Shown here in pieces: positions 62,842 to 64,000 of a DNA stretch of 64,000 nucleotides (its first letter is position 1; every line of letters starts with the position of its first letter). The position numbers and the translations under genes were made by a program. The notes beneath the pieces are model-generated. The model was not told the origin of the DNA. It did not search any database and saw only the letters and a list, made by a program, of their open reading frames with translations. This DNA is from Dulcicalothrix desertica PCC 7102 (GTDB taxonomy: Bacteria; Cyanobacteriota; Cyanobacteriia; Cyanobacteriales; Nostocaceae), in the NCBI RefSeq assembly GCF_003991905.1, contig NZ_RSCL01000005.1:376920-440919 (forward strand). Reading direction: 5' to 3'.

Positions 62842-64000
62842 TTATGACCTATAATCAAGCTCGGAGTAATCCCAAGAGTGCATTTGTCTAAAAGGTAAGC
62901 CCATCTTTTGGAAGACGTACTTCTCTTTAATACCAGAAGCAATCAAATCAGGTTTCTTAGCCTTGACAAACTCTTCAAATTCGTATGCAGTTACGTCATC
63001 ATAGATGATGGTCGCATTGTCGATGTAGTGAGTAGTACGTTTGTAGTCATCGTTGTGTGCAAACTCGTAACCTGTACCAACTACCTTGATACCGACATCT
63101 TCAAATGCAGGAACAACGTGACGAGGACGTAGACCACCAACATAAAGCATTACGGTGTTGCCTTCGAGACGAGGACGGTACTTCTTAAGAACTGCGTCCA
63201 TGACAGGTTGATACTTAGCGATAACTTTTTCAGCATTAGCTTGAATTTTGTCATCGAACTTAGCAGCAATTTCACGAAGCGATGCAGCAATTTTGGTAGG
63301 ACCAAAGAAATTAAATTCCATCCAAGGCAATCCGTATGATTCCTCTAAACTACGGCAGATGTAGTTCATCGAGCGGTAGCAGTGGATTAAAACTAACTTA
63401 GCAGCAGGTCCTTGGATAAGTTCGTTTATGGTCCCATCCCCAGACCACTGGGCCACAACACGCAATCCCATTTCTTCGAGTAACATCCGGCTGGCCCAAG
63501 CGTCACCACCGATGTTATAATCTCCGATTAATGCAACGTCGTAAGGACCTGGTTCAAAGTCGAGTGTGTTTTCTTTCTTAGCTTTGTCAAAGTGAGGGAA
63601 TACCCAGTCACGGATAGCGTCGTTAGCAATGTGGTGTCCTAAAGATTGCGAAACTCCACGAAAACCTTCACAGCGCAAAGGAATTACAGGTTTGCCAATT
63701 TCTTTCGAGGTTTTCTTAGCTACAGCTTCGATGTCATCCCCGATAAGACCGATAGGACATTCAGATTGAATCGAAATACCTTTGTTGAGGGGGAAGAGTT
63801 CTTCGATTTCGTGAATGATTTTGGTGAGTTTTTTGTCACCACCAAATACGATGTCACGTTCTTGGAAGTCGGAGGTAAAGTGCATGGTACCGAAAGCATC
63901 GACACCTGTTTTACCAACATAGTAGTTACGACGACCAGACCATGACCAGTAACCGCAACCAACAGGACCATGACTGATGTGAATCATGTCTTTGATTGGT
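62842..64000 (-). CDS. nifD: Nitrogenase MoFe protein alpha chain, 3' end replaced at an element border; 5' end outside the window
   Basis: The frame enters from the right edge ([19 protein letters not shown]) and follows NifD closely. P-cluster ligands lie in VGCGYW and SECPIG, the Gln/His pair in [11 protein letters not shown], the FeMo-cofactor Cys in [10 protein letters not shown], and its His in MHSWDYS. After these residues the family continues [17 protein letters not shown] for about 45 more residues; here the frame reads ELDYRS and stops. The change falls exactly on GGATTACTCCG. This is the vegetative-cell form of nifD interrupted by an excision element; excision would restore the reading frame in heterocysts. 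The truncated product lacks the C-terminal part and should not assemble properly. Confidence 0.93.
62862..62872 (-). mobile_element. Site-specific recombination core of the nifD element (one border)
   Basis: On the minus strand the sequence is GGATTACTCCG, identical to the 11-bp core repeat flanking the nifD element of Anabaena/Nostoc PCC 7120. NifD homology ends inside it. DNA to the left is therefore element DNA. A second direct copy should mark the other end; I found none within the window. Confidence 0.88.

Follow-up and report, generated by a model that had tools for sequence, protein, structure and literature searches.

The window analysed here is the whole stretch of 64,000 nucleotides, corresponding to C5:376920-440919 in a genome of 11.4 Mb assembled in 109 contigs. 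At its right-hand end we find an open reading frame on the minus strand (62842-63999) that matches the NifD model TIGR01282 with E=1.3e-208 and 693.4 bits (cut-off 653.55) over model positions 62-434 of 466, while the start of the gene lies at C5:441140, 221 bases outside the window. The features of the nifD locus are as follows (coordinates in the window unless preceded by a contig).

1..62861, no strand: body of the ~88-kb nifD element, which runs past the window to the right core, with xisA near the right core
1..2904, no strand: window edge of a ~26-kb nested block (C5:353752-379823) that is absent from the PCC 7716 element
6680..7783, plus strand: ArsA-type ATPase (PF02374 E=2.6e-24, PF17886 E=2.9e-15)
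28333..31170, plus strand: P-type cation ATPase (PF00122 and related families)
8718-10622, 16947-19208 and 21733-24513: three more E1-E2 ATPase reading frames
61026..62603, plus strand: GGDEF protein adjoining the left core (PF00990 E=4.2e-44)
62842..62861, minus strand: tail of the vegetative frame, made of element DNA (remaining part of ELDYRS, then TAA)
62862..62872, minus strand: left recombination core GGATTACTCCG, constant in 51/51 genomes examined
62862..64000, minus strand: nifD 5' piece with the left core at its end (TIGR01282), where homology to intact nifD stops
C5:351403-350111: truncated nifK

The initial annotation had placed the loss of NifD homology after the codons for WDYS, at GGATTACTCCG. 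The reading frame agrees, since the minus strand runs to HSWDYS and stops being NifD-like at window positions 62872-62862, and the six non-NifD codons and TAA described there were confirmed by reading. DNA homology to intact nifD in two genomes of the same genus ends at the last base of the core, so that the left piece, core included, measures 1360 bases. The core sequence occurs once in the window (62862-62872, minus strand), where shuffles expect 0 copies. In the whole genome there are five exact copies, against three for a reversed control, and the four remaining copies all lie on other contigs. Thus, the 11-mer is not special genome-wide, and the weight rests on its position, exactly where homology to intact nifD stops.

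The other half of the gene was found, by reading and by search, outside the window on the same scaffold. A nifD 3' piece (ending in KAA) lies at C5:351754-351627, directly upstream of nifK, and is immediately preceded by a right core, GAATTACTCCG, at C5:351765-351755. The two cores are direct repeats with one mismatch (10 of 11 positions identical, including the last nine), and are separated by 88,026 bp. The prediction of a second core in the same orientation, followed by the nifD 3' end and nifK, therefore holds for the linkage on C5 but not for exact identity; a second exact GGATTACTCCG linked to nifK is ruled out, the partner core being GAATTACTCCG. Similarly, the earlier statement that nifK does not follow has to be amended: nifK does follow, but only at the far end, beyond the nifD 3' piece, and it too is interrupted. 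Comparison of the two borders over 26 bp gives 19 identical positions, whereas the best other of the 88,000 element positions tested reaches no more than 16, and the nifD strand of the element contains no further site within one mismatch of the core.

When the flanks are joined at the core, they give an uninterrupted nifD of 495 codons; the break near base 1355 and the in-frame fit of the two pieces are those of the position-1355 variant of the element. Two genomes of the same genus (G077 and G075) have a whole nifD, i.e. an empty site, whose products are 98% and 97% identical to the joined protein. Compared with these intact genes, the homology of the right piece resumes about 11 bp before its core.

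The Pfam Oxidored_nitro family gave nine matches in the genome, and those on C5 correspond to the nifD 5' piece, the truncated nifK, the nifK 3' end, nifE and nifN. Besides the two pieces of the gene, a NifD query recovered only two distant homologues, namely nifE at 34% identity and an E-like gene on C17 at 26%, and contiguous codons for WDYSGPYHG had no match in the whole genome. The full-length nifD elsewhere that the initial annotation had named as evidence against a rearrangement was thus not found in either search, and the nifD 3' end and nifK, whose absence from the second core would likewise have spoken against it, are both present on C5. Since no other copy was found in the genome, excision would be needed for nifD. 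On C17 (148055-150680) we also observed a second pair of nifE-like and nifN-like genes, with no nifD or nifK in the stretch read; by the NCBIfam cut-offs, this pair scores over the threshold for NifN and below it for NifE.

The recombinase gene xisA is located at C5:351940-353241 on the plus strand, opposite to nifD and 174 bp from the right core, and encodes an open frame of 433 amino acids. Its place at the 3' end of the element is that found in nifD/XisA elements. The protein is 97% identical to those adjoining the nifD 3' piece in Calothrix HK-06, PCC 7716 and PCC 7103, the closest named relatives. The boxes GLRPREL, YDLRH and LGH...TY agree with a tyrosine recombinase in which a tyrosine has taken the place of the conserved histidine, a change described for XisA in PMC3610870. 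We compared 75 xisA loci, i.e. 77 minus two with 57% and 51% identity (L104 and L105). The nifD 3' codons adjoin xisA in all 75, YDLRH and LGH...TY are present in all 75, GLRPRE was detected by a simple pattern in 63, and one relative has an internal stop. The protein scores under the Pfam integrase cut-off (20.4 vs 27.1 bits) and has no match among the NCBIfam models at 1e-5. A GTAN8TAC site upstream of xisA was dropped as evidence for NtcA control, because such a site is present in one of the 75 relatives while 5% of shuffles have one. A gene of the hetR family was found in the genome.

The stretch between the cores contains 128 N in seven runs, all within C5:356032-376919, and its length of ~88 kb is therefore an assembly estimate. 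Elements at the same site range from ~1.8 to 71.8 kb with a median of 12.8 kb, these sizes being approximate and taken from the 40 of 74 searched genomes in which both ends seemingly lie on one contig in consistent order. By this measure the present nifD element is unusually large. Interruption elements in general reach nearly 1 Mb (Hilton et al. 2016, PMC4874684), so the size alone is not new. For most of its length, the stretch of ~60 kb adjoining the nifD 5' piece is collinear with the element of Calothrix PCC 7716 (~54 kb), mostly at 90-97% DNA identity; with PCC 7103 it is partially collinear. A Pfam scan matched 17 of 18 window reading frames; in addition to the genes listed above, the cargo includes two Na/Ca exchangers, a carbonic anhydrase, a ParB_N-domain protein, and radical-SAM, glycosyltransferase and ABC genes.

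In place of the nested block, the PCC 7716 element has 545 bp. Ten of the 24 reading frames listed for this block were scanned against PHROGs, yielding one integrase, one endolysin, two very weak matches and six without a match; the integrase and endolysin frames lie in the part of the block that is outside the window. When 59 other genomes were searched for a 676-aa frame of the block, relatives turned up in 12, mostly as weak or partial matches; the best, at 74% identity, is in PCC 7716 and lies outside the nifD element of that strain. Patterns of the same frame matched no DNA in IMG/VR. We infer that a prophage-like mobile element has entered the nifD element and constitutes this block. An 80-kb nifH element with a prophage remnant has been described in Anabaena sp. 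90 (PMC3542288).

Further nif genes of this genome are interrupted as well, and the six nif elements together occupy 244 kb or more.

C5:285531-350127: nifK element, 64,596 bp, repeat GTTC, serine recombinase at its end
C16:30400-62250 and C5:441300-441430: nifH, in four pieces
nifH element 1: 1,906 bp, repeat TGGCTGA
nifH element 2: 29,154 bp, repeat GGCGGTTTCGCTA
nifH element 3: at least 58.4 kb, repeat ACTCC, putatively linked across the C5/C16 contig ends
C16:65774-68059: nifB element, 2,285 bp, repeat GAATTTAC, with little beyond a serine recombinase gene

The nifK pieces join to 511 codons, and the recombinase at the end of the element has Resolvase, Recombinase and zinc-ribbon domains, as in the nifK elements with a serine recombinase. 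The repeat GTTC was picked among several short words listed, by agreement with the intact nifK of G075; nifK is whole in G075 and split at the same place in G077. Within the nifK element we noted a reading frame that by eye resembles EF-G (C5:321269-323359), in agreement with the TEFG paralogs that PMC4874684 reports in nifK elements of Calothrix PCC 7103 and C. desertica PCC 7102. The end of nifH lies directly upstream of nifD. A full-length second nifH is present on C35, and nifH, unlike nifD, thus has an intact paralogue. Around position 7,500 of C69, a serine recombinase gene adjoins what by eye appears to be a coxA 3' piece, probably marking a further interruption element. An element in hupL is ruled out, this gene being one open frame, and no adjoining split gene was recognised on reading the frames next to the recombinase genes on C3, C24, C17 and C26.

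Rearrangement of nifD belongs to the programmed gene rearrangements for which heterocyst-forming cyanobacteria are well known. We put at about 95% the probability that the locus holds a nifD interruption element in the vegetative state, before excision, in a Calothrix-like cyanobacterium of the heterocyst type. A split gene, two cores, a recombinase gene, a restored frame and natural empty sites are all present. XisA, encoded at the far end opposite to nifD, would bring the directly repeated cores together, cut them and exchange their strands (most likely in the TACTCCG that both contain), whereupon the ~88-kb segment would be released as a circle and an intact 495-codon nifD would be left behind. 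The published Anabaena and Nodularia cases suggest, by analogy, that such recombination occurs, that it is confined to differentiating heterocysts and that it yields a circle. The split gene, the XisA-family gene and the restored frame likewise support the initial reading of a vegetative form of a rearranged nifD beside an apparently excisable element. As indicated from the sequence, a block of ~88 kb, nearly the whole window included, would have to leave the chromosome before the strain can make NifD.

One could instead regard nifD as a dead gene, i.e. a pseudogene broken by an insertion, in a strain that has lost nitrogen fixation. The nif genes of this genome are interrupted by six elements, which would suit such decay, and the case for excision itself is built on sequence. 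However, the reading frame is open in both nifD pieces and complete once they are joined, the protein of the 5' piece is 100% identical to those of PCC 7716 and HK-06, XisA is encoded by an open frame of 433 codons, and the pieces of nifH, nifB and nifK can likewise be joined in frame through short direct repeats. We consider decay very improbable.

Another alternative concerns only the extent of the element, which would be real but shorter than ~88 kb, a repeated mobile region having been mis-scaffolded. The nested block gives some ground for this: all seven N runs (C5:356032-376919) lie within it, it contains near-duplicate pairs of reading frames, and a fragment of the end of the 676-aa frame recurs beside the first N run. 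On the other hand, both edges of the block are in N-free sequence that is continuous with element DNA, and even without the block the element would measure ~62 kb, against ~54 kb in PCC 7716. Inflation of this kind appears unlikely, though less so than a dead gene.

The comparison across genomes also bears on where in the core XisA would act. The left cores examined come from 51 of the 74 genomes searched, and in these 51, which have both borders, the left core is always GGATTACTCCG. The right core is exact in 37 of them, and in the other 14 the changes are confined to the first four bases, so that TACTCCG is retained in 51/51; of the 75 right borders overall, 59 match the core exactly and every one retains TACTCCG. 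Most of the right-core variants (AAT, GAA, AGT and others) would replace an aspartate if the exchange lay upstream of them. The contiguous WDYSGPYHG codons occur in 58 of the 217 genomes of the family. One of these (HK-06, G080) represents an element end, and 57 were taken as uninterrupted; the two copies checked among the 57 are those of G075 and G077, and several of the 57 have the appearance of paralogues from a second cluster. At the silent positions of TACTCC, 16 of these 57 contiguous nifD copies differ and 0 interrupted ones do, meaning that these positions vary only in uninterrupted copies (Fisher p about 1e-5, run with 16 of 58 and uncorrected for relatedness).

Taken together, the constant left core, the right core that varies only in its first four bases and the silent variation of TACTCC in contiguous nifD suggest that strand exchange by XisA probably takes place within TACTCCG. 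We slightly favour a broader proposal, in which the crossover segment of XisA would be these seven bases rather than the textbook 11 bp, the first four bases of the right core would be free to drift because exchange occurs downstream of them, and the element would fix the silent positions of TAC TCC for its own use. In the same proposal, the right end in the Calothrix clade would be an eroding 26-bp copy of nifD that is still perfect in HK-06. In that genome (L032), the right border matches the left one over 26 bp without a difference, which resembles a target copy that has escaped erosion or a patch left by conversion; at the other Calothrix right ends the sequence has the look of an eroded version of this patch. 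Differences of one base between cores have already been published, in working elements (PMC3610870), and no statement of a seven-base core was found in the literature searched, which covered papers other than those on the nifD element by Henson, Barnum and colleagues. The cross-genome comparison thus turns a textbook repeat into a sharper proposal for the site of XisA strand exchange.

Among known systems, the closest counterpart is the position-1355 nifD/xisA element as described by Hilton et al. (2016, PMC4874684), which is alike in its site near the nifD 3' end, its direct repeats, the single element per site, and a gene for a tyrosine recombinase that lies at the far end, opposite in strand to nifD. 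The present element may already stand in Table B of that study, if this genome is among their 38. However, mismatch-free repeats were required there, whereas the cores described here differ by one base, and at ~88 kb the element exceeds all 40 that we measured at this site. The nifD element of Nodularia spumigena CCY9414 (PMC3610870) also has the left core GGATTACTCCG, a right core that is one base off, and an XisA with tyrosine for histidine; it differs in the base that is changed (GGAATACTCCG) and in its reported content of one reading frame besides xisA. Anabaena sp. 90, whose nifD is split into 1,356 and 147 bp, is alike in having several elements in one nif operon, two in nifH and one in nifD (PMC3542288). 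Its three elements are found in a 122-kb operon, whereas here six elements, in nifB, nifH (three), nifD and nifK, together account for at least 244 kb.
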